Shown piece by piece: positions 363 to 12,909 of a DNA stretch of 13,173 bases (its first letter is position 1; each line of letters opens with the position of its first letter). The notes below the pieces were generated by a model that made no database searches, was not told the origin of the DNA, and was given only the letters and a program-made list of their open reading frames with translations. Source of the stretch: Clostridia bacterium (GTDB lineage: Bacteria; UBA6262; WVXT01; JAUXBS01); assembly GCA_030618495.1 (NCBI GenBank), contig JAUXDE010000044.1, positions 1 to 13,173 on the forward strand, given 5' to 3'. A program made the translations under genes and the position numbers.

Positions 363-1628
363 CTACACACACTTTGGCAGGATTATCCTGAAAGTTGCCC
401 CTTCACCCTCACGGCTGTCAAAATCAATAGTCCCGTTATGCTGAGTCATGATATCCCTGCTGATTGACAAGCCCAGCCCTGTCCCTCCGCCTTCTTCCTT
501 CGTGGTAAAAAACGGAGAGAAAACTTTATCCCTGATTTTATCCGGAATACCGCCCCCTTCATCGATGAATTCAACAATGACTTTCTCGCCCTCGGTTTTA
601 CATGTCACCAGCAGTTTACCCCCGTCCTTCATGGCATCCCGGGCATTGTTCATAAAATTAATAATAACCTGCTTGATCTGATTCCTGTTCACTGACACGC
701 TGCAGGGCTCCTCACTGTAACGTTTGATAACCTGGACCCTGTCCTTTTCAAGATTATATTTAACAAGTTCATAACTTTCATCAAGAATTCTTTTAACATC
801 CAGATTTTCATATCTTTCATCGCCCTTATGGGAGAATGCCAGTAATCCTCTCGATATTATCCCCCCCTGTTCGGCAACCTCACATATATCTTTTATGCGT
901 TTTCTGTTTTCTTCAGTCCTGCCCTCGTGCCTTTTTATTGATTCCGCTGTTCCCATTATTATCTGAAGCAGGTTGCCGATTTCATGGATTACACCGCTTG
1001 CCAGTGTCCCCACCGAAGCCAGCTTGGCTGACTGGAAAAGTTGGGATTTTACTTCTCCATACAGGTTTTCAACCTTACGTAAATTTACTTTGTATTTTTT
1101 TGCTTCCTGGGCAAAATAGCTTGAAAACAGCGCCACCACAAAAAGGAAAGGAATGCGAATCAACACACTTGTATTATACATACCGGCAATTGAGTTTGTC
1201 TGCATCACTATGGCGCCATATAAAATACTGATAAGGAATGTGATAATCAGTGAAAGGAGAATACTCTGACCCAGTGCCGCCATGAAGATTACCAGGAAAT
1301 ATGCCATGTACAGTTCAACGTCAGCGCCACTGGCAAGATAAATAAGCACGGAAACAAACACGGTATCAAATATGAATACTGAATACCTTATCTTATTTAA
1401 AAGAAACTTTTTACAAGGAACAAAACCAAGCCCAACATTTGAAATGATGAAAAACAACAAGAGGCGGTTAACAAGCTTGATATTTTTTATTGACTCTTTC
1501 TCTTTGCTGTAAAGGAACAGGAACATTAAAACTATGAAAATCATCCATCTTAAAAAAAGAATAAGCCTTTTGGCTTTTTTTTCTTCTATGTCCTTCTTTT
1601 CAAGTATAGGTGTCATATTTGTTTGCAA
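363..1628 (-). CDS. Six-TM membrane sensor histidine kinase
   Basis: This membrane-bound two-component histidine kinase is predicted to autophosphorylate and pass phosphate to a response regulator, most likely the OmpR-type protein encoded immediately upstream. About six hydrophobic segments occupy residues 22-175, with little periplasmic sequence between them, so it probably senses within or through the membrane. The dimerisation helix carries H215 in the box HEIGNLL, where most relatives have HEINNPL. The ATPase domain has the N box (NFMNNARDAM, 324-333), G1 (DEGGGIPD, 356-363), F box (FSPFFTTK, 370-377) and G2 (GGGTGLGLSIS, 380-390). It is the last gene of the operon. The longest frame begins with TTG at 1628, directly after the upstream TGA, with a weak AAGAG about eight bases before; an ATG four codons in (1616) is the alternative start. 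Signal and target are unknown. Confidence 0.93.
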   Translation of the reverse strand: MQTNMTPILEKKDIEEKKAKRLILFLRWMIFIVLMFLFLYSKEKESIKNIKLVNRLLLFFIISNVGLGFVPCKKFLLNKIRYSVFIFDTVFVSVLIYLASGADVELYMAYFLVIFMAALGQSILLSLIITFLISILYGAIVMQTNSIAGMYNTSVLIRIPFLFVVALFSSYFAQEAKKYKVNLRKVENLYGEVKSQLFQSAKLASVGTLASGVIHEIGNLLQIIMGTAESIKRHEGRTEENRKRIKDICEVAEQGGIISRGLLAFSHKGDERYENLDVKRILDESYELVKYNLEKDRVQVIKRYSEEPCSVSVNRNQIKQVIINFMNNARDAMKDGGKLLVTCKTEGEKVIVEFIDEGGGIPDKIRDKVFSPFFTTKEEGGGTGLGLSISRDIMTQHNGTIDFDSREGEGATFRIILPKCV

Positions 1629-2336
1629 TCAATCACTCTTGACAAATTTATATCCCCTGGTTTGCACGGTAATTATACTACTTGCTGTCTTTCCCAGCTT
1701 TTCCCTCAACCTGCGGACAGTCATATCCACAGATCGTGAATCATCGGAAAATTCCCGGCCCCAGATTGATTCCCTCAAGTACCTTCTGCTTAACACTTTG
1801 CCTTTTTGCTTTAAAAGAATGGCTAGAAGGTCGAATTCCTTTGGCCTGAGTTCCACACTCTTCCTGTTCACCTGTACCATATGATTATCTACGTCAACAA
1901 TAATATTTTTCTCTGTTAGAACATTACCGTTCCCCTTTTTTCCGCGGGACTGTCCTTTCATTTCCCTTCTTCTAAGCACAGCCTTTACACGAGCAACTAG
2001 TTCCCCCGAATGAAAAGGTTTTGTTATATAATCAAATGCGCCAATTTCCAGCCCCCTTATCTTATCGTCCGGATGCACCGATGTGCCTGTCATAATAATG
2101 ATAGGAATACTTTTTGTTTCTATGTTGTTTTTTAAAACCCTGCATATTTCCCAACCGCCTATTCCCGGAAGCATTATGTCCAGAAGGATTAATTCCGGCA
2201 GTGATGTTTTCGCCTTTCTAACCGCTTCATTTGAACTGGCGGCAGTCATAACCATAAAACCCTCTTCCTCCAGCGCTTCCCTGATAAGCGTTAAAATCCT
2301 GGGATTATCATCCACTATGAGAATTCGCTTCTTCAC
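1629..2336 (-). CDS. OmpR/PhoB-family response regulator
   Basis: This is a DNA-binding response regulator. An N-terminal receiver domain (about 1-122) has the acidic pocket D9-D10, the phosphorylatable D53 in LLDIMLPG, the switch threonine T83 and the invariant K106 in TKPF. A basic linker (RGKKGNGN) leads to a winged-helix output domain (about 137-233) with the typical RPKEFDLL, recognition helix DSRSVDMTVRRLREKLG and C-terminal hairpin QTRGYKF. At 235 residues it is the usual family length. The start codon is GTG at 2336, four bases after the upstream stop, with a GAGG motif inside the end of that upstream gene, so translation is probably coupled. The likely partner is the histidine kinase immediately downstream. 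It may control its own operon, but no binding site is evident. Confidence 0.95.
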   Translation of the reverse strand: MKKRILIVDDNPRILTLIREALEEEGFMVMTAASSNEAVRKAKTSLPELILLDIMLPGIGGWEICRVLKNNIETKSIPIIIMTGTSVHPDDKIRGLEIGAFDYITKPFHSGELVARVKAVLRRREMKGQSRGKKGNGNVLTEKNIIVDVDNHMVQVNRKSVELRPKEFDLLAILLKQKGKVLSRRYLRESIWGREFSDDSRSVDMTVRRLREKLGKTASSIITVQTRGYKFVKSD

Positions 2337-2339
2337 CTT

Positions 2340-3110
2340 TTATTCCTCTTCAATAATTTCCTGTATTCTTATCGGCTTTAACTCAAACAAACTGGTATTT
2401 TTGGCCTCCAGTATTCTTTTTAACCCATCGTTGGGAACCTTGCTGAAATCAAGGACTATATGAATATTATTAGTTAAAGCAAAGTTCAGCACTTCCACTC
2501 CCGTAGTATCATTCCAGTCAGCAAGTCCCATGTCGCTTATTATGTAATCCGGTAGTTGTTTTTTAGACTGCTCAAGCAATTCATCTTTTGTGCTGACTTC
2601 AACAACTTTGTTTCTCGCTCCCGCGGTTTCAATTATATTTTTTTTCACATAATTATTTTCAATTAAAACCATCAATTTTTTCCCGATAACTATTTCCTGT
2701 TGCTGTTGCTGCTGCTGAACACCCTGGCTTTTTTCCGGCAATTTTCCTATAATCTTCTCTATCGATGCAATCAGTTTCTCTTCTTCAAAAGGCTTGGAAA
2801 TAAACTCGTTCACATCAAGCATTATCATTTCCTTCATCTGCGCGTCAAATCCCTTTGAAGTAAGCATTATTATGGGTACTGACCGGCAGGCAGGATTTGC
2901 CCTTATTTTTTTTATCGCCTCATATCCGGTTAGAACAGGCATGTTGTTATCCATGATTATCAAATCAGGATTCGCGCTCTCCGCAAGATTAATGCCCTTC
3001 TGCCCGTCATCCGCTTCAATAATTTCAATATCATAGTTATCAAGGGACATCCTTACAAGCAGCCTCCAATCCATCTGATCATCCACAATTAATATTCTTT
3101 TCTCAGCCAT
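2340..3110 (-). CDS. Response regulator with REC, polyGln linker and degenerate second REC
   Basis: Residues 4-122 form a complete receiver domain with D10-D11, phosphoacceptor D54 in IIMDNNMP, switch T84 and K106-P107. A linker (about 123-140) contains seven consecutive glutamines from alternating CAG/CAA codons. The second half (143-256) has receiver-like alternating strand/helix spacing: ISDMGL holds D193 where a phosphoacceptor would sit, and ELKPI holds K245. The N-terminal acidic pair is missing (LIENN) and the switch region is altered, so it is probably a pseudoreceiver. There is no DNA-binding or enzymatic output, so it most likely works by protein contact or as a phosphorelay intermediate. 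A strong AAGGAGG precedes the ATG. It lies between two kinase/regulator partners; the HAMP kinase 40 bases upstream is the likeliest donor. Confidence 0.88.
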   Translation of the reverse strand: MAEKRILIVDDQMDWRLLVRMSLDNYDIEIIEADDGQKGINLAESANPDLIIMDNNMPVLTGYEAIKKIRANPACRSVPIIMLTSKGFDAQMKEMIMLDVNEFISKPFEEEKLIASIEKIIGKLPEKSQGVQQQQQQQEIVIGKKLMVLIENNYVKKNIIETAGARNKVVEVSTKDELLEQSKKQLPDYIISDMGLADWNDTTGVEVLNFALTNNIHIVLDFSKVPNDGLKRILEAKNTSLFELKPIRIQEIIEEE

Positions 3111-3149
3111 GGGTAATCCTCCTTATACGTTATTCTTTTTTCTATATTT

Positions 3150-4595
3150 CTATACTTTATCCTTTAACTCCGCCGGTAACGAGCCTTTTGGCAAACTGAA
3201 AAAAAACGTACTCCCTTTGTTTATTTTACTCTCTACCCATACCTTGCCGTCATGAGCTTCGACTATCCCCTTCACTATAGCGAGTCCCAGTCCCGTACCT
3301 CTGGTTTTAACCATTTTAACATGTTCCTGCACCTGATGAAAACGGTCAAATATACTTCCGATATCCTCGGGAGGAACCCCGACACCCGTATCGCTTACGC
3401 TTATTATCAATTCCTTCCTCTTATCCTCAAGAGAAACCGTAATACGCCCTTTCTCGGGAGTGAACTTGATGGAATTGCTTATCAGGTTATGCAGCACTCT
3501 TTCCAGGCTTTTTTTATCCCCGAAAATCTCTTCCGCTCCATCAGGAACTTTTGCCTTTAGAATAATTGATTTATTATCGGCAAGGGGCTCAATCAATCTT
3601 ACCGTTTCCCTGATAATTTCCGAAACATCCGTTTTCTCCCTGACTATGTCAATACTGCCGGATTTTATTTTAGCATAATCCAGGATATCTCCTATGAAAT
3701 TCCCAAGACGCTCAGCGTTTTCACTTACCCTTATAAGGGCATCCTTCTGCTTGTCGTTTATATTGCCCATCCTGCCTTTCAGTAGGAAGTCAACATAACC
3801 TTTCATTGCCCCAAGGGGAGACTTCAAGTCATGGGTGATATTGGAAACAAAGGCATCTTTCATAGTATCAAGTTCCTTCAGTTTTTTGGCCATACTGTTG
3901 AACTCTCCCGCAAGCTTGCCCAGTTCATCCCTGCTCCTGATATCTATAACCGTATCCAGATTGCCATCCCCTATAGACGCTGCGCCTTTGGATAATTTCT
4001 TGATGGGATTTGACATCATGCCGGCAAGAATAACCGAACCAAACAATCCCAGCAAGAGGCTGACACCGGAAATACCCGCAATCCTTGTATATGTTTGCTG
4101 TTTTGTATTTTCAATTAACCTGTTCAATCCCACCTGGGAAAACCTTATGCCGGTAGTGCCTGTCCTTTCCCCGCCTATCATAACCGGCAAAAATATATCC
4201 CATACGTTTTCTATTTCAGGATGAGTTGCGCCAAGATAAGACCCTTCATCAATCTTGATTTCTGCCAGTTTATTGTCAAAATCGCCTATCATTTTTGGTT
4301 CGGTGTGAGCCAATATTTTGCCGTCTCTATCCACGTAAATAATGTGGACTATTTCCCTGTTGTTCTTCCTGATGTTCTTTACCTGGTTTATTATCAACAA
4401 CTGGTCATTGCCTATTATGGATTCCCTGCAAACATGAACCAGGTTTTTTGCGAGCTCTATCCTGCTTGCTTCTTTGTCCTTTATTATTTTATTAAGAATG
4501 GTCCGCTCAGATATGACCAGGAAGAGGCTTACGCCTGCGACCACAATCAGGACCATCACGGTTATTGATATCCCAAACTTATATTTCAATATCAT
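3150..4595 (-). CDS. Cache/HAMP sensor histidine kinase
   Basis: This is a classical transmembrane histidine kinase. TM1 (about 8-29) and TM2 (172-192) bracket a periplasmic sensor (30-170). The segment YVDRDGKILAHTEPKMIGD in the sensor fits a single Cache-like ligand-binding fold. HAMP follows at about 193-245 (NPIKKL...DELGKLAGEFNSM). The DHp helix has H255 in SNITHDLKSPL, and the catalytic domain has N374 in HNLISNSIKFTP, G1 DTGVGVP (402-408) and G2 GTGLGLAI (433-440). All key residues are present, so it should be active. Its ATG shares a base with the TAA of the upstream barrel-TPR gene (TAATG), with AGGAG ahead, pointing to coupled translation. It is probably paired with the REC-pseudoREC regulator 40 bases downstream. 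The ligand is unknown; linkage to envelope proteins suggests periplasmic or envelope sensing. Confidence 0.94.
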   Translation of the reverse strand: MILKYKFGISITVMVLIVVAGVSLFLVISERTILNKIIKDKEASRIELAKNLVHVCRESIIGNDQLLIINQVKNIRKNNREIVHIIYVDRDGKILAHTEPKMIGDFDNKLAEIKIDEGSYLGATHPEIENVWDIFLPVMIGGERTGTTGIRFSQVGLNRLIENTKQQTYTRIAGISGVSLLLGLFGSVILAGMMSNPIKKLSKGAASIGDGNLDTVIDIRSRDELGKLAGEFNSMAKKLKELDTMKDAFVSNITHDLKSPLGAMKGYVDFLLKGRMGNINDKQKDALIRVSENAERLGNFIGDILDYAKIKSGSIDIVREKTDVSEIIRETVRLIEPLADNKSIILKAKVPDGAEEIFGDKKSLERVLHNLISNSIKFTPEKGRITVSLEDKRKELIISVSDTGVGVPPEDIGSIFDRFHQVQEHVKMVKTRGTGLGLAIVKGIVEAHDGKVWVESKINKGSTFFFSLPKGSLPAELKDKV

Positions 4596-6550
4596 TATTC
4601 GGGCTCCTGTTCAATCTTGACTTCTTCCTGGGCCCTCTTTAAAGCATTCTGTATTATTTCATTTTCAGGATCCAGTTTTATTGCCTTCTTCCAGGTTTTT
4701 ATTGCCCCGTCAGTATCACCCTGAGTATAACTGCCGAGCCCCTCCGCATAGTATTTTTCCGCCTTTTTCTTGTTTTCCTTCTTGATATTTTCACGGGATT
4801 CAACAATCTTTGCTATTACCTTTTTGTTATCATGACCGTACTTCAGTGACCTGTTGAACTGCTTGACAGCGGTACTATATTTGCCTTTCTTAAAGAAGAA
4901 CAGCCCCCTGTTATAATACATACTTGCGGCTTCTTTCTTCGCCTTTGCCAGGTATTCCTTTGACCCTTCATGGTCAGGATTATATTTTATCACATCCTTG
5001 AAAACTCTAATTGACTCCACCCACTGCCCCTTGTTAAAAAATGCCAGTCCCTTGTAGTAATCTGAAATCGCCTTCCATTTTCCTTCCTTCTGTTCTTTCT
5101 GTTTCTCCATGGCTTTCTTAACTTTAGCAAGCTTCTCTTTTATCAATGTTTCATACTTGCCTGCCTTATCATGCATGGGATTAAAAGACAGCACCTTATT
5201 CACGTGCTCATGCGCAATTTTGTAATCCCCGCGCTCGTAACTCGTTTTGGCTTTTTCCATCTGGTTACTTATTAATTCATCTGATTTTCTCTTTATCTTT
5301 TCAAGGTATTCTTTTGCCTTCTTGTGTTCAGTGTCCACGATAAGCAGACCGTCAAACTCAACCATGGCTTTAACCAGGTCCCCTTTTTTGTAATACTTTT
5401 CGCCCCTTACAAAATATCCTGCTATTTCCTTAGAAGTATCGTACTCATCAATGTTCACCTCGGTTCTTGCAAGGTAATCCGACGCCCCCTTATGCCCGGG
5501 AGCCAGTTCAAGTATATTCTTGAATTCGTTGTAGGCATTAATAAATTCCCTGCGGTAATAATATTTCTTCCCGCGTTTAAAGTGCCTCTCTATGTTGCTC
5601 TCTATCAACGTGTACATGTATTCCCTGCCGAACCGCCCTGTAAAACCGAACCGGCTGATCATGTCTCCCAGAAACAGAGAAACAACAAAATCAATATGTA
5701 CGTTTTCGTTGCCTATGCCGATACCAAAGTGTATACCCTGGTCCTGGCCAGCCCTTGTATTATAACCTGTCCTCAGGGCAAGCCAGTTAAGTACCCAGTA
5801 CTCCCCTCCGAAGGTAATGAATGTTTCCTCCCCGCTCGAAGCCAGGTTAAGGTCAAGCCCAAGAGTAAGCACACCGTCAAACCATTTTCCCGCCACTCCT
5901 AACTTGTAAATGAGTGGAAGCGCTAACCAGGGCCTCTTACTCTCTGTTATTGTAGTGGTTGAAATGAAATTAGCCGCTGAGATATTCTGTATGACTCCCG
6001 CCAAATGAATTTCATCAGTCACTTTGTGTATAATACCTATATCAGCTCCCCAACTATACCGCGGGTACGTGCTTATGCTTAGATCGTAGGGGTTCTCTTC
6101 AAACAGGTCTTTTTTCAGGAACTTTGCGTTTAACCCCAAACTTGTATTGTCGGTAATCTTTTTACCATAAGACAACATGATAGAGGTGTCCCATATTTCC
6201 TTATAATTTTCAGGTACATTTCCCAGGTGTTGATAATAATAGCCGGAAATACCGAAAGTCCCGATATTTTTTAGCGGGTTGACGTAGGCAAGATACATAT
6301 AAGGAGTACCCTCACTGGACATAACCGTAAATTCCTTGCGGTCAAGCATTCCCAGCCCCGCAGGGTTCCAGTAAACAGCATTAACATCATCGGCTACCGC
6401 GACATACGTTCCCCCCATACCGAAAGGCCTCAAACCAACGCCTTTTGTAAGCAAGTCAAAATCAATAGTTGAGTCACTAAAAGCGTATCCGGCAGCAGTA
6501 AAAAGCAATAACAGCGATACAAATAGTGTTGAAAGCGTTCTCTGTTTCAT
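4595..6550 (-). CDS. PorV/UPF0164-like outer-membrane barrel fused to TPR domain
   Basis: A signal peptide (1-25, ending near GYAFS) is followed by the hallmark of PorV/PorQ/UPF0164-like outer-membrane barrels, GLRPFGMGGTYVAVADD then WNPAGLG (40-67). Alternating strands then run to about 310, including aromatic-rich stretches such as ISGYYYQHLG. Residues 324-631 contain six TPR-like units starting near 324, 378, 430, 496, 544 and 597, each with the pattern Y-x-G-x-x-x-x-K-G-x-x-x-x-A and ending in P or an equivalent. The tail is lysine- and glutamate-rich. Free-standing members of the barrel family are usually about 300-400 residues, so the C-terminal TPR extension roughly doubles the length. 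The barrel should sit in the outer membrane with the TPRs as a protein-docking platform, most plausibly on the periplasmic face. The ATG overlaps the upstream lipoprotein stop (ATGA). Confidence 0.87.
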   Translation of the reverse strand: MKQRTLSTLFVSLLLLFTAAGYAFSDSTIDFDLLTKGVGLRPFGMGGTYVAVADDVNAVYWNPAGLGMLDRKEFTVMSSEGTPYMYLAYVNPLKNIGTFGISGYYYQHLGNVPENYKEIWDTSIMLSYGKKITDNTSLGLNAKFLKKDLFEENPYDLSISTYPRYSWGADIGIIHKVTDEIHLAGVIQNISAANFISTTTITESKRPWLALPLIYKLGVAGKWFDGVLTLGLDLNLASSGEETFITFGGEYWVLNWLALRTGYNTRAGQDQGIHFGIGIGNENVHIDFVVSLFLGDMISRFGFTGRFGREYMYTLIESNIERHFKRGKKYYYRREFINAYNEFKNILELAPGHKGASDYLARTEVNIDEYDTSKEIAGYFVRGEKYYKKGDLVKAMVEFDGLLIVDTEHKKAKEYLEKIKRKSDELISNQMEKAKTSYERGDYKIAHEHVNKVLSFNPMHDKAGKYETLIKEKLAKVKKAMEKQKEQKEGKWKAISDYYKGLAFFNKGQWVESIRVFKDVIKYNPDHEGSKEYLAKAKKEAASMYYNRGLFFFKKGKYSTAVKQFNRSLKYGHDNKKVIAKIVESRENIKKENKKKAEKYYAEGLGSYTQGDTDGAIKTWKKAIKLDPENEIIQNALKRAQEEVKIEQEPE

Positions 6551-7359
6551 CTCTTACCTGCCTTCTTCGCATCAAGCTGCAACCTGAATTCATCCCTCGT
6601 TTTTATAAGGGTAGAGATTAAATTTTTTATCTTTTCTTCGTAATCCAGTATTTTCTTTTTCAATTTTTCAATATATCCCGCATCCATGTCTTCAAGAATA
6701 ATTTCCCTTTTCTTCACAAGGTAAGTATAAATATTCTTAGGCGGTGTCATGCATCCACCTTTTACTTCTGCGTATGAATAAGGTTTCAATGTATAAGCAT
6801 AGAAATTTTTCCCCTGTATTCTTAACCTACAGGAACGGTAAAATGTATTCAATGACATAAAATAATTGCATACCTGTTCAACATCCGGAAGAAAAGCCTC
6901 ATATTCCTTCAATTTTTTAATGGTTATGGTTTTAAGCTCGCCATCAATCTCTATTTTTATCGGATCGTCAGAGAAAACCCTGTTATACGTGCTGCGCTCC
7001 TCACTAAGGGCCAACAGCAGGTCCATCAGAGTTTCATGATACGCTTTCAATATTTTGTCGCATGGTTCCTTGGTAACGCTGATTGCCCTGTAAATATCGT
7101 TCATCCTGTTTTTCATGCCGGAAATATCTTTTTCAATACTGTCAATTCCTAAGCTTGCTTCTTCAATTCCCGCCGATCCCGAGGATAAAATATTATCCAT
7201 CTCCCTTGATTTCTTGCTGATGCCGGATAAATCCCTCTGTATATCCCTTAATTCCATTGATATGGCATCAACTCTCTTGAAATATTTATTATGCTTCATG
7301 CAACAGCCTGACATTGATGCCATTATTAAGAGGGTAAGAAGTACTTTCACTTTATTCAT
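6547..7359 (-). CDS. Coiled-coil lipoprotein of unknown function
   Basis: I do not recognise a family. A lipoprotein signal peptide (1-18) ends in a lipobox MSGC with C19 as the predicted lipidated residue, followed by another cysteine. Residues 30-95 have heptad-like spacing (ISMELRDIQRDL, IDSIEKDISGMKNRMNDI) consistent with a coiled coil. A central globular part (about 100-215) contains further cysteines (C100, C164, C177, C203), and a second charged helix follows (220-265). The sorting residue after the cysteine is Cys rather than Asp, so outer-membrane attachment is plausible in principle. It lies between the Ig-repeat protein and the barrel-TPR protein, overlapping the latter by four bases, so it probably belongs to the same envelope assembly. 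Only a weak CAGG precedes the ATG. Confidence 0.8.
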   Translation of the reverse strand: MNKVKVLLTLLIMASMSGCCMKHNKYFKRVDAISMELRDIQRDLSGISKKSREMDNILSSGSAGIEEASLGIDSIEKDISGMKNRMNDIYRAISVTKEPCDKILKAYHETLMDLLLALSEERSTYNRVFSDDPIKIEIDGELKTITIKKLKEYEAFLPDVEQVCNYFMSLNTFYRSCRLRIQGKNFYAYTLKPYSYAEVKGGCMTPPKNIYTYLVKKREIILEDMDAGYIEKLKKKILDYEEKIKNLISTLIKTRDEFRLQLDAKKAGKR

Positions 7360-7409
7360 GGGATAACCTGTTCCGGGTCGGGCTTATATCTCCGATGCCC
7401 ATACACAAC

Positions 7410-9746
7410 TTATTTTTTGTCTATATGCTCTATGAATTCAACAATCCCTTTATTGATTGCCCCTTCTATATGAAGGCTCATTTCAGTAAAAACCCCCATA
7501 CCTTTCAATTCCTTTTTCACAAAAACCATATTCTTATCGGCAATATTGCCTTCAATAAACTTCTGTAAATCGCTATTAGTTATTTGTTTTTTACTTGCCA
7601 GTTCATCAATTGTTTTCCCTAAAACCGCTTCATTTTTTCTGCCCTTCGATACCGCAAACAACCATACCTGATACAGCCCTGCCCGGGCATACTTCTCTCT
7701 CTCTTCAATTTCATTGATTCCATATTTATACAGGAATGGATCAGCCTTATCCCTGTCATGCTTTCTTCCATTCCATGACCATCTATAAGCGTTATTCTCA
7801 TCGGAATACATCACTTCAGACCATTCTTTTTTCTGTATAATCTCCCTTGTGCCGCTGAAATTTTTCTCCCCGACAACCACACAGTTTACAGCAACCCGCC
7901 CGGAAAAAATAAAATCTATAATTACCCTGCCTTCCTTATCAACTTTGTCCCTGTCAAGGTCCACTTCAAGGCGGTTGAAAACATCATCGGAGGAAATAAC
8001 CGGGCTTGGGAAAAGATAATCCTGCTCCATATCAAATGCATAAAATACGTTGGTACCGTCATACTCCGCCGACAAGACTTGCGGCGTTTCCCTTACAAAA
8101 ATATCATAGCCGTATACGATAGTTTTTGGTTTCTTCACAAGAACTGTATCCGTAGCCAGTATTTTGATTTTATACTTGCCCGGAGAAACATGTTTCCCGT
8201 ACTGGTCCGTCCCGTCCCATCTTACTTCAGCTGGCCCGGCAAGGACTCTTCCCATATCGGTTTTCTTCTCAATGCCCCCCTTGACCGAAAGAATCTGAAC
8301 TTTAACGTTGGCATCCTTGGTAATTTTAAAGGGGATTACAACCTCGGCAAACCTGTTTGCCATGGAAACTGATATATTCTTGGGAAAGAACTCCTGATTT
8401 GCATTAACGCCTCTTATTTCCTTTTTTTTGACATTTATACCAAATGGCTTTTCAAGGTCTATCGTTACGGTAGTAATTTTTGGAGCGCCTACTTCCTTCG
8501 TTTCCGGGTCCTTTACATTTACCTCTATGGTGTACTTCCCCGAAAATAAACTCTCGGTTTTAACCGACGTATAGAGCACCTCAACCCTGTCAATTTCAGT
8601 TTCTATAATATCACCTTCGATTCCTTCTGTTTTCTCTTTCAATTCCTTCAGGGTAATCGGTGTTTCACCGCTTTTTACACTGGAATAAATTATGGGATAT
8701 CCTTCATTTTTTCCCATCTTATATTTTAAATCCTTCCCATTCATTTCTTCCGTAATGGTTTTCTTTTCATGCTTGATTATTTCAGTTGCTTTTTCATCTT
8801 GCTTGTCTTTTTTCTTAATCTTAATCTTATAATAAATATTAGTATTAAATTTAACCTTTTTCAGCCCCCCCCATACGATAGAATTCTTTCCCGCATTACC
8901 CCCATTTATCCCGCTGTACCACACCTCCTCGCCGCCGGTATCGCTCACCTTTATACTGTAATCCGCTTTCTTATCCAACGTAAATGATATGGTCGTATAA
9001 TTATTCATTCTTTCGGGATTAATTTTGCCGGGGATTACCGTCAGGTTCTTTATTTCAATACCCTCAACAATCATAAAAGGAACTTTGCGCTTCTCTTTCT
9101 TCCCGGAAACTGAAACTTCTAACAAGCATACATACGACCCGGGCTCCAGGAACCAACCTTCCTCGTCCTTGCCGTCCCATGATATACTGTTTCTACCCCT
9201 GGAAACTTTTTTTCTTTTAACAGGATGAATCATGGGAATCCCCCTGCTGTCCAATATAGCAATTGAGACAACTGCCTTTTTTGATAGCTGGAATAGTATT
9301 GTCGCCGTTTCTCTGGCCGGACTAAGCGGGGATGGAGCGAACCTCAATTCCTCGATAACGTAATAGGTTTCAACCCGTACTTCTTTTTTAAGAACCGTTT
9401 TTCTGAATGGCTTTGCAAAATCACTCAAAACCATCTCTACTTCATAATTTCCGTTATCAACCACGTCACCATTATCATTCCTGCCATCCCATTCTGATTC
9501 AAATGATGATTTTGCGGAAATCCTTTTTTTAACAAGATTCCTTACAAGTATCCGCTTTTTTTCGGTTAATTCGTATATCTTAATGTCAACATTGGATTCA
9601 TTCGTCAGAGACACCTTAATGATTGTACTGTTATTGACACTGCTGCCGGGTGAAATGTCGGTATTGCTGATATCAAGCGTCGCTGAATACAGCTTTAAAG
9701 GTAAGAATATAAATAGAATTAAAGTAAATAATGTTATTTTTTTCAT
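7410..9746 (-). CDS. Exported protein with repeated FlgD-like Ig domains
   Basis: A signal peptide (about 1-21, cleaved near LYSA) precedes several Ig-like modules of the FlgD C-terminal type. Their signature is W-(D/N)-G-x-(D/N)-x-x-G followed by a G-x-Y hairpin. Clear copies are WDGRNDNGDVVDNGNYEV (86-103), WDGKDEEGWFLEPGSYVC (190-207) and WDGTDQYGKHVSPGKYKI (510-527). Weaker copies occur near 292-309 (VWGG) and 656-695 (WSWNG...ARAGLYQV). In FlgD this fold helps cap-protein assembly; in exported proteins of candidate phyla such modules are usually extracellular or periplasmic adhesive or structural elements. No flagellar genes are nearby, so a flagellar role is not supported. It is the first gene of the operon, about 40 bases from the predicted transcription start, with a weak GAGTGA before the ATG. 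Confidence 0.84.
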   Translation of the reverse strand: MKKITLFTLILFIFLPLKLYSATLDISNTDISPGSSVNNSTIIKVSLTNESNVDIKIYELTEKKRILVRNLVKKRISAKSSFESEWDGRNDNGDVVDNGNYEVEMVLSDFAKPFRKTVLKKEVRVETYYVIEELRFAPSPLSPARETATILFQLSKKAVVSIAILDSRGIPMIHPVKRKKVSRGRNSISWDGKDEEGWFLEPGSYVCLLEVSVSGKKEKRKVPFMIVEGIEIKNLTVIPGKINPERMNNYTTISFTLDKKADYSIKVSDTGGEEVWYSGINGGNAGKNSIVWGGLKKVKFNTNIYYKIKIKKKDKQDEKATEIIKHEKKTITEEMNGKDLKYKMGKNEGYPIIYSSVKSGETPITLKELKEKTEGIEGDIIETEIDRVEVLYTSVKTESLFSGKYTIEVNVKDPETKEVGAPKITTVTIDLEKPFGINVKKKEIRGVNANQEFFPKNISVSMANRFAEVVIPFKITKDANVKVQILSVKGGIEKKTDMGRVLAGPAEVRWDGTDQYGKHVSPGKYKIKILATDTVLVKKPKTIVYGYDIFVRETPQVLSAEYDGTNVFYAFDMEQDYLFPSPVISSDDVFNRLEVDLDRDKVDKEGRVIIDFIFSGRVAVNCVVVGEKNFSGTREIIQKKEWSEVMYSDENNAYRWSWNGRKHDRDKADPFLYKYGINEIEEREKYARAGLYQVWLFAVSKGRKNEAVLGKTIDELASKKQITNSDLQKFIEGNIADKNMVFVKKELKGMGVFTEMSLHIEGAINKGIVEFIEHIDKK

Positions 9747-9792: not shown

Positions 9793-9820
9793 ATTATACT
9801 AATATAATATATTAAATCAA
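9793..9820 (-). promoter_or_regulatory. Predicted sigma70-type promoter of the seven-gene operon
   Basis: On the minus strand a perfect -10 box TATAAT (9798-9793) lies 16 bases after TTGATT (9820-9815), which matches four of six -35 positions. Long T tracts directly upstream (about 9821-9856) could act as an UP element or bend the DNA. The expected start near 9786 leaves a leader of about 40 bases before the ATG at 9746. Confidence 0.55.
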
Positions 9821-10022: not shown

Positions 10023-10802
10023 TTACCAGATGCATTTCCATCTATGTTTACCTGTTTCACTGTCAAATTCAATATAACCATCAGGATCTGCCCAACCTTT
10101 CCCTGCCTCCGTTGCAGGCTTAAAATCATGCAAATCCATATCCCAGCTTATTATTTCCCATGAAGGAACAGCAGAAATATTATCTACTGACAACTTGAGT
10201 CCTGAGGACCATTCAGTTTCAGATATTCCTTCAATTATAAAAGTGACATCCACCGTTGCGGTATTATCGGCAATACTGATATTAGAATAGGAAAATTCCA
10301 CCCCTTCGGGTATAGGACAGTTCTGACAAAAATTTTCTTTCGTGCAGATTACCTCATCATTCCCTGTAAAAGTCATTTCAAAACCATCACCTAAAACATC
10401 ATCCAGATTTACAGCACTGCCTTTTATTCCTTCTATAAACCCGTCATATACAGCCATGATTTTACTTTCGTTATCATACATCAGGACTATATCCGTCATT
10501 TCCATCTTGCAGGCATAGGATTCTCCAAGAGTAACTTGTTCATGACTGTCAACATAGCCTTCTTTTGTTGCTTTTATTTCATAATTGCCCCAGATAACAT
10601 TTTCAAATTTAAACCAGCCCGCATTATCCGTTTCGGTTTTAACCAACTCAAAAGAGCGTATGTAGAGAACTATCGTTGCCTTATTGACAGCCCTTCCCTG
10701 GCTGTCAATTACTCTGCCGGAAATCTCCCCCTCACACCCAAGCGGCCCCCACCCGGTGCTTAGAATAATTAATAATATAATAAGTAATATATATTTTCTC
10801 AT
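10023..10802 (-). CDS. Lipoprotein with carboxypeptidase-regulatory-like domain
   Basis: The lipoprotein signal peptide ends in PLGC, with C23 as the predicted lipid attachment site. Residues 25-100 form a carboxypeptidase regulatory-like (transthyretin-type) domain with the sequence GRVIDSQGRAVNKATIVL, then TDNAGWFKFENVIWGNYEIKATKEGYV. This fold usually anchors or presents other domains outside the cytoplasm. The rest (about 108-259) matches nothing I know. It contains clustered cysteines (C153, C159, C162) and C257 three residues from the end, which could form disulphides. It has its own predicted promoter and a CRP-like site upstream, and is separated from the following operon by the inverted-repeat element. 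No Shine-Dalgarno sequence is visible, and the -10 box lies only about ten bases before the ATG, so the message may be nearly leaderless or start elsewhere. Confidence 0.82.
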   Translation of the reverse strand: MRKYILLIILLIILSTGWGPLGCEGEISGRVIDSQGRAVNKATIVLYIRSFELVKTETDNAGWFKFENVIWGNYEIKATKEGYVDSHEQVTLGESYACKMEMTDIVLMYDNESKIMAVYDGFIEGIKGSAVNLDDVLGDGFEMTFTGNDEVICTKENFCQNCPIPEGVEFSYSNISIADNTATVDVTFIIEGISETEWSSGLKLSVDNISAVPSWEIISWDMDLHDFKPATEAGKGWADPDGYIEFDSETGKHRWKCIW

Positions 10803-12672: not shown

Positions 12673-12909
12673 CTATGTCTTCTTTTTTCTTCCTCTCATC
12701 ATCTTTGATTTTGAAATATCTCCCTGCCTGTCAATGAAGTAAAGATAACCTGTTTCTCTCTTAATCCCCGCATTTTTCACCTTTTCTGGAGATCCCCGTC
12801 CTTTTCTTCCACGAGCCATCTTAATCCTGGATATATCACCTTCCTTATCCATAAAATAAAGATAACCTTCTTCACGGGTAATGCCTGTATTCACCACTTT
12901 TTCTGCCAT
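12673..12909 (-). CDS. Small basic protein with two GYLYF-D-GDIS repeats
   Basis: The 78-residue protein consists almost entirely of two copies of a 34-residue unit, residues 3-36 and 42-75. They are identical at about 24 positions and joined by a short GRGSP-type linker. Each unit contains G-I-x-R-E-x-GYLYF-x-D-x-x-GDIS, then K-M-x-RGRK, ending in basic residues. I do not know a characterised family; I have the impression that single-unit relatives occur in environmental genomes, but cannot confirm it here. The alternating hydrophobic/charged core looks like a beta hairpin per unit, and the RGRK/KKK tails suggest nucleic acid or other polyanion binding. A strong AAAGGAGG about ten bases before the ATG supports expression. 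It follows the lysine-rich gene on the same strand. Confidence 0.75.
   Translation of the reverse strand: MAEKVVNTGITREEGYLYFMDKEGDISRIKMARGRKGRGSPEKVKNAGIKRETGYLYFIDRQGDISKSKMMRGRKKKT

Follow-up and report, generated by a model that had tools for sequence, protein, structure and literature searches.

A PorV-type barrel with a TPR arm encoded beside a Cache-HAMP sensor: a candidate module for trans-envelope signalling

TonB-dependent transducers of the FecA-FecR type relay surface events across the envelope: the periplasmic domain of a barrel in the outer membrane transmits them to a regulator in the inner membrane. The kinase WalK is regulated by partner proteins (YycH/YycI). PorA, a PorV-binding CTD protein of Porphyromonas, is placed upstream of the kinase PorY, and according to the authors this signalling step should be mediated by other factors (PMC7712824). 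Even this best-studied case leaves a gap between a type IX-like surface protein and the kinase of the inner membrane. In PorP-PorE complexes the FadL-family barrel carries a CTD protein and has a TPR/propeller protein as its periplasmic partner (PMC9143113). The genes reported here offer a candidate mediator, a barrel with a predicted periplasmic TPR arm that is encoded beside a sensor in many genomes and combined with exchangeable outputs, and this makes the surface-to-kinase question testable. They also provide candidate functions for a recurrent, unannotated gene set of uncultured phyla, which may report cell-surface events to the cell interior, possibly by physical coupling.

We name module a PorV-family barrel with TPRs, fused or adjacent, that is encoded at most two genes away from an sCache-HAMP transducer, the arrangement found in the operon studied here. 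FecA-FecR-type systems use another barrel family, an N-terminal signalling domain and anti-sigma factors, in contrast to the C-terminal TPRs and Cache-HAMP proteins of the module. The model of the module sensor is closest to the extracytoplasmic Cache domain of WalK but, unlike the module, WalK with YycH/YycI has no outer membrane, barrel or TPR partner. Judged by analogy, the closest precedent is PorA-PorV acting upstream of PorY. The PorA-PorV/PorXY-SigP system of Porphyromonas gingivalis likewise places a PorV-binding surface CTD protein upstream of an inner-membrane histidine kinase (PMC7712824). However, its PorV lacks a TPR arm, and one kinase with the PglZ-type regulator PorX controls secretion genes, whereas the barrel of the module has a TPR arm and adjoins its sensor gene, and the outputs vary. 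PorP-PorE-type B CTD complexes share with the module the FadL-family barrel, the surface CTD protein and the periplasmic TPR protein (PMC9143113). PorE attaches to peptidoglycan and is not known to have a sensor partner; the module instead has its TPRs fused to the barrel or encoded next to it, with a transducer behind. Searches of the open literature (open-licence full texts) turned up no account of the module, and no described system matched; likewise, the initial annotation knew no named system with the gene order of the operon. The module is apparently an undescribed variant of trans-envelope surface signalling, a kind that is itself already known.

The window, which is the whole stretch of 13,173 nucleotides analysed, belongs to a genome of 1.69 Mb (98% complete). 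Its positions 363-9746 carry seven ORFs, all on the minus strand and located in the ORF list as first described; the ORF coordinates confirmed that no gap exceeds 50 bases. In the order of transcription they encode an exported Ig protein of 778 amino acids with repeated FlgD-Ig/CTD-like Ig domains (7410..9746), a coiled-coil lipoprotein of 270 amino acids with the lipobox SGCC (6547..7359), a 651 amino acids-long barrel-TPR protein composed of a signal peptide, a PorV-family barrel and TPRs (4595..6550), the membrane histidine kinase HK1 with single-Cache, HAMP, HisKA and HATPase domains (3150..4595), a double-receiver response regulator (Response_reg; 2340..3110), an OmpR/PhoB-type response regulator with Response_reg and the winged-helix DNA-binding domain Trans_reg_C (1629..2336), and a second histidine kinase, HK2, with HisKA/HATPase and a multi-transmembrane input devoid of a Cache domain (363..1628). 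The barrel-TPR protein and HK1 are the core part. Intergenic distances are 50, −4, −1, 39, 3 and 0 bases; stop/start overlaps, initially reported as several, are two, lipoprotein/barrel and barrel/HK1. The gene naming was upheld by matches to FlgD_ig (three), TPRs, PorV_fam, HisKA/HATPase (two), Response_reg (two) and Trans_reg_C (one), and by the lipobox. A weak promoter-like site on the minus strand (TTGATT-16-TATAAT, 9793..9820) lies about 46 bases ahead of the first gene, but such sites are no commoner in the window than in shuffled DNA. A terminator-like stem sits after the gene upstream of the operon. That gene (10023-10802, minus strand) codes an exported protein with a CarboxypepD_reg domain; it is separated by 276 bases from the first operon gene and occupies the same position in the sister species (59% identity).

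The barrel scores 97.2 bits on the NCBIfam PorV/PorQ family model PorV_fam (NF033709; curated cut-off 90) and its paralogue from the same genome 186.7 bits. On the equivalog model for the type IX PorV (NF033710) it reaches 41.6 bits, below the cut-off of 250, and it carries an extra TPR extension of 330 residues. A 14-strand FadL-type barrel of the PorV family (residues ~30-307) is followed by a solenoid of about seven TPRs (309-647). The structural model (pLDDT 82, pTM 0.50) shows the 14 strands at 72-307 and paired helices at 309-647; due to the low pTM, it does not fix the angle between barrel and solenoid. Its best PDB match by Foldseek is 8gl6_F, from a type IX complex with a RemA-CTD substrate, a chain that we take to be the PorV barrel; TPR proteins and the FadL/TodX channels come next. 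In HK1, two transmembrane helices flank a periplasmic single-Cache domain and are followed by HAMP, HisKA (H255) and HATPase domains. The sensor model (pLDDT 78) matches the input domains of WalK, CitA and DcuS. The first receiver of the double-receiver regulator is intact (D10, D11, D54, K106) and the second one is degenerate, with clear matches of this second domain found only in the sister species and in the MAG L057 (E 2.6e-13), whose counterpart is 40% identical over its full length. MAGs of another phylum encode an orthologue of this regulator immediately after the module kinase, and OmpR-type regulators akin to that of the window (34-42%) come after module kinases elsewhere. HK1-like Cache-HAMP kinases without an adjacent barrel were seen amid runs of several response-regulator genes (L115-L118), and one further run (L266:8539-14289) combines two Cache-HAMP kinases, several receiver genes and a TPR gene, with no barrel.

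In the sister species (JAUXBS010000004.1, CSMAG_2805), the seven genes and the one upstream of them are arranged in the same order, with 58-80% identity, so the seven-gene order is not due to chance. HK2 is kept in the sister species and was seen in the window's genus only. The lipoprotein has no family above cut-off in Pfam or NCBIfam and, apart from a weak match within an unrelated 1048-aa frame (G004), no other clear match beyond the window's genus among the 60 genomes searched. The Ig protein has three FlgD_ig domains and five internal CTD-like repeats (approximately 39-102, 138-220, 247-316, 477-533 and 645-685), with no full-length match in the related modules compared. It has no C-terminal sorting domain: the last repeat ends at residue 685 of 778 and a tail of about 90 residues follows. 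The exported neighbour in the paralogous modules does have this domain (TIGR04183, 29.3 and 29.6 bits versus a cut-off of 23), and the exported protein of other modules is a different one whose C-terminal domain is type-IX-like and whose gene usually adjoins the barrel-TPR/sensor genes. The Ig protein is a genus-specific version of the exported protein of the module; since it lacks the sorting domain of most other modules, docking is less certain here than elsewhere. As judged from these searches, the lipoprotein and the Ig protein are accessories confined to the window's genus. The initial annotation had linked the envelope proteins to the sensor circuit as a unit of seven genes. The link between barrel-TPR protein and membrane sensor holds, as paralogous and orthologous modules and co-inheritance testify (see below), but the seven-gene unit does not, because lipoprotein and Ig protein are found in this genus only.

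What recurs is a unit of fewer genes than the seven-gene operon, with a much wider distribution. Modules were read at about 41 loci, in 12 genome families (as grouped by the search tool) and in MAGs labelled Elusimicrobia. The usual arrangement is an exported CTD protein, then barrel-TPR, then the transducer. The window's own genome (C95), the sister species (C5) and a further family within the order encode other full-length barrel-TPR homologues, each directly followed by an HK1 homologue and preceded by an exported protein with a Por_Secre_tail or FlgD-type C-terminus. In a third version, barrel-TPR is followed by a kelch protein ending in a FlgD-type tail and then by a transducer that combines the same Cache-HAMP input with a guanylate cyclase output. 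An alignment of the sensor part (A3) was searched in 386 genomes and the neighbourhoods were annotated with HMMs derived from module proteins. Beyond the window's order, a PorV-type barrel lies at most two same-strand genes from the transducer at 22 loci from ten further families; about 30 other sensor loci have no PorV-type barrel within this distance. The barrel-TPR and the sensor input are constant while the outputs are interchangeable (histidine kinase, class III cyclase, SpoIIE phosphatase or PAS). The partner of the barrel is thus a single Cache-HAMP input rather than two-component genes as such, which had been proposed; HK2 lacks this sensor and was seen in the window's genus only.

The TPRs are fused to the barrel in one MAG labelled Elusimicrobia (L236) and encoded by a separate neighbouring gene in others (L057/L224, L229), where the TPR protein has a signal-like stretch at its N-terminus. 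In two MAGs of one small phylum (L057, L256) the order is exported CTD protein, barrel, TPR, receiver-cyclase, histidine kinase and double-receiver regulator. Some modules have one or two genes between barrel-TPR and transducer. The protein encoded at this place ahead of a SpoIIE transducer in family f117 (L132:7433-9430 and L130:9955-11955) shows in L132 two-component-regulator propeller repeats and an OmpA domain, recalling PorE. No single-chain fusion of the sensor to TPRs or to a barrel was found among the fetched loci. Two simpler descriptions were discarded, namely a genus-level curiosity, given that the same core occurs in paralogues and other families, and a module restricted to kinases, given the cyclase and SpoIIE outputs.

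The reverse search used a barrel-TPR profile over the same 386 genomes, scoring the top three candidates per genome. Matches listed in which the barrel runs into TPRs (profile position at least 410) were 28: 20 have an sCache-HAMP transducer at most two same-strand genes away, five do not, and three lie at contig ends. The transducer is hence present beside 20 of the 25 scoreable genes among the matches listed, and beside 10 of 15 when the sequences used to build the profile are left out. None of 12 control loci of TPR-less PorV had an sCache-HAMP transducer within the flanking genes available, ruling out a general link of PorV barrels to kinases; inspection by eye of about 120 TPR-less rows listed gave one with a sensor match within ~6 kb (G151:C62). 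Homologues devoid of two-component genes, which had been regarded as evidence against the link, are therefore the situation of the TPR-less PorV barrel and mostly not of the barrel-TPR, with the five exceptions among the 25. At E ≤ 1e-20 the window's genome has two sCache-HAMP matches, precisely the two encoded next to its barrel-TPR genes. Pairwise distances of barrels and sensors correlate across 34 modules (Mantel r 0.854), and re-pairing the sensors within genomes, which keeps the species tree, gave correlations averaging 0.44 and never exceeding 0.81, so that none of 5000 trials reached the observed value; note that these modules were picked by adjacency, that pairings are common to related species and that the trials are not independent events. 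In 13 of the 34 modules the genes of barrel and transducer share 1 or 4 bases. Barrel and sensor are inherited as pairs.

We favour, with modest confidence, the reading that the operon is a version of a conserved trans-envelope relay in which the periplasmic TPR arm of the barrel informs the Cache sensor of cargo or occupancy at the surface. The PorV-family barrel would reside in the outer membrane and dock a FlgD/CTD-type Ig partner at the surface, as PorV/PorP-type barrels do; in the window this partner would be the Ig protein, aided by the lipoprotein. The C-terminal TPR solenoid is predicted to hang into the periplasm because an even-stranded barrel puts both its ends on the periplasmic side. 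It could touch the periplasmic single-Cache domain of HK1, directly or via a partner, and docking, release or occupancy of the barrel would alter this contact and thereby the activity of HK1, which would phosphorylate the double-receiver regulator and/or the OmpR-type regulator, with HK2 contributing a second input. In this way the kinase may monitor the cargo or assembly of the envelope proteins, as proposed initially for both kinases. More tentatively, PorV-TPR barrels could form a general, unnamed class of outside-in receptors whose periplasmic TPR arm drives Cache-HAMP proteins in several poorly studied phyla, with kinase, cyclic-nucleotide cyclase and PP2C phosphatase as interchangeable outputs.

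Several points count against the relay. Five of the 25 barrel-TPR genes among the matches listed have no such transducer nearby, one or two genes separate barrel-TPR and transducer in some modules, and the exported protein of the window lacks the sorting domain. Moreover, small molecules are frequent ligands of Cache domains, and HK1 could thus respond to a metabolite. One alternative is that the Cache domain senses a small molecule and the transducer controls expression of the neighbouring surface proteins, regulation being shared with no contact between barrel-TPR and sensor. Two-component genes often adjoin the genes they control, an OmpR-type regulator comes after HK1 and the modelled sensor looks like Cache domains that bind ligands, for example those of CitA and DcuS. 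Nevertheless, transducers with cyclase or SpoIIE outputs, which do not act directly on neighbouring promoters, keep the same neighbour, TPR-less PorV genes have no sensor despite being equally surface-exposed, and the barrel/sensor pairing is specific within genomes; we regard shared regulation as rather unlikely. It is still less probable that a FadL-type barrel imports a hydrophobic compound that the Cache domain detects, with the TPR arm as organiser. Such sensing coupled to uptake would fit the FadL and TodX channels among the Foldseek matches and the small ligands bound by Cache domains, but the best fold and family matches are to PorV, a cargo carrier, a CTD-type exported protein is the regular neighbour, and no metabolic genes were seen to accompany the module in the neighbourhoods read.

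It is highly improbable that the operon is simply a type IX secretion locus with its PorXY regulators. Besides the PorV-family barrel and CTD proteins, the genome encodes a divergent SprA/Sov-like ORF of 1766 aa (G000:C106; matched in several pieces at E 1.8e-21, short of the curated cut-off). However, the PorU catalytic domain is absent (no Peptidase_C25 match in the window's genome), NF033707 matches falling in the region of C-terminal sorting domains and, in one case, in the window's Ig repeats. Both regulators lack the PglZ domain that PorX has, matching receiver and winged-helix domains only, and the PorX model matched just the receiver part. Moreover, there are several modules per genome with different outputs, and not one regulator. 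The search for the PorL/PorM (GldL/GldM) motor by TIGR03517 gave no match anywhere, its controls being also silent. With a SprA-like ORF and sorting-domain tails, no PorU-type protease and an uninformative GldM search, we use for the operon only the term "type-IX-like" and do not file it as a type IX locus.

The SprA-like ORF (G000:C106:2043-5096) has counterparts in the other genomes of the window's order. The sister MAG (L052, JAUXBS010000004.1) is labelled Clostridia in NCBI, yet it encodes outer-membrane PorV-type barrels; this label is probably wrong. Farther upstream of the operon, the minus strand of the window carries a 78-aa ORF that contains a duplicated stretch (12673-12909) and, at the contig end (13056-13172), a lysine-rich repeat of the KKAKKKVAKKK type with the look of histone H1.
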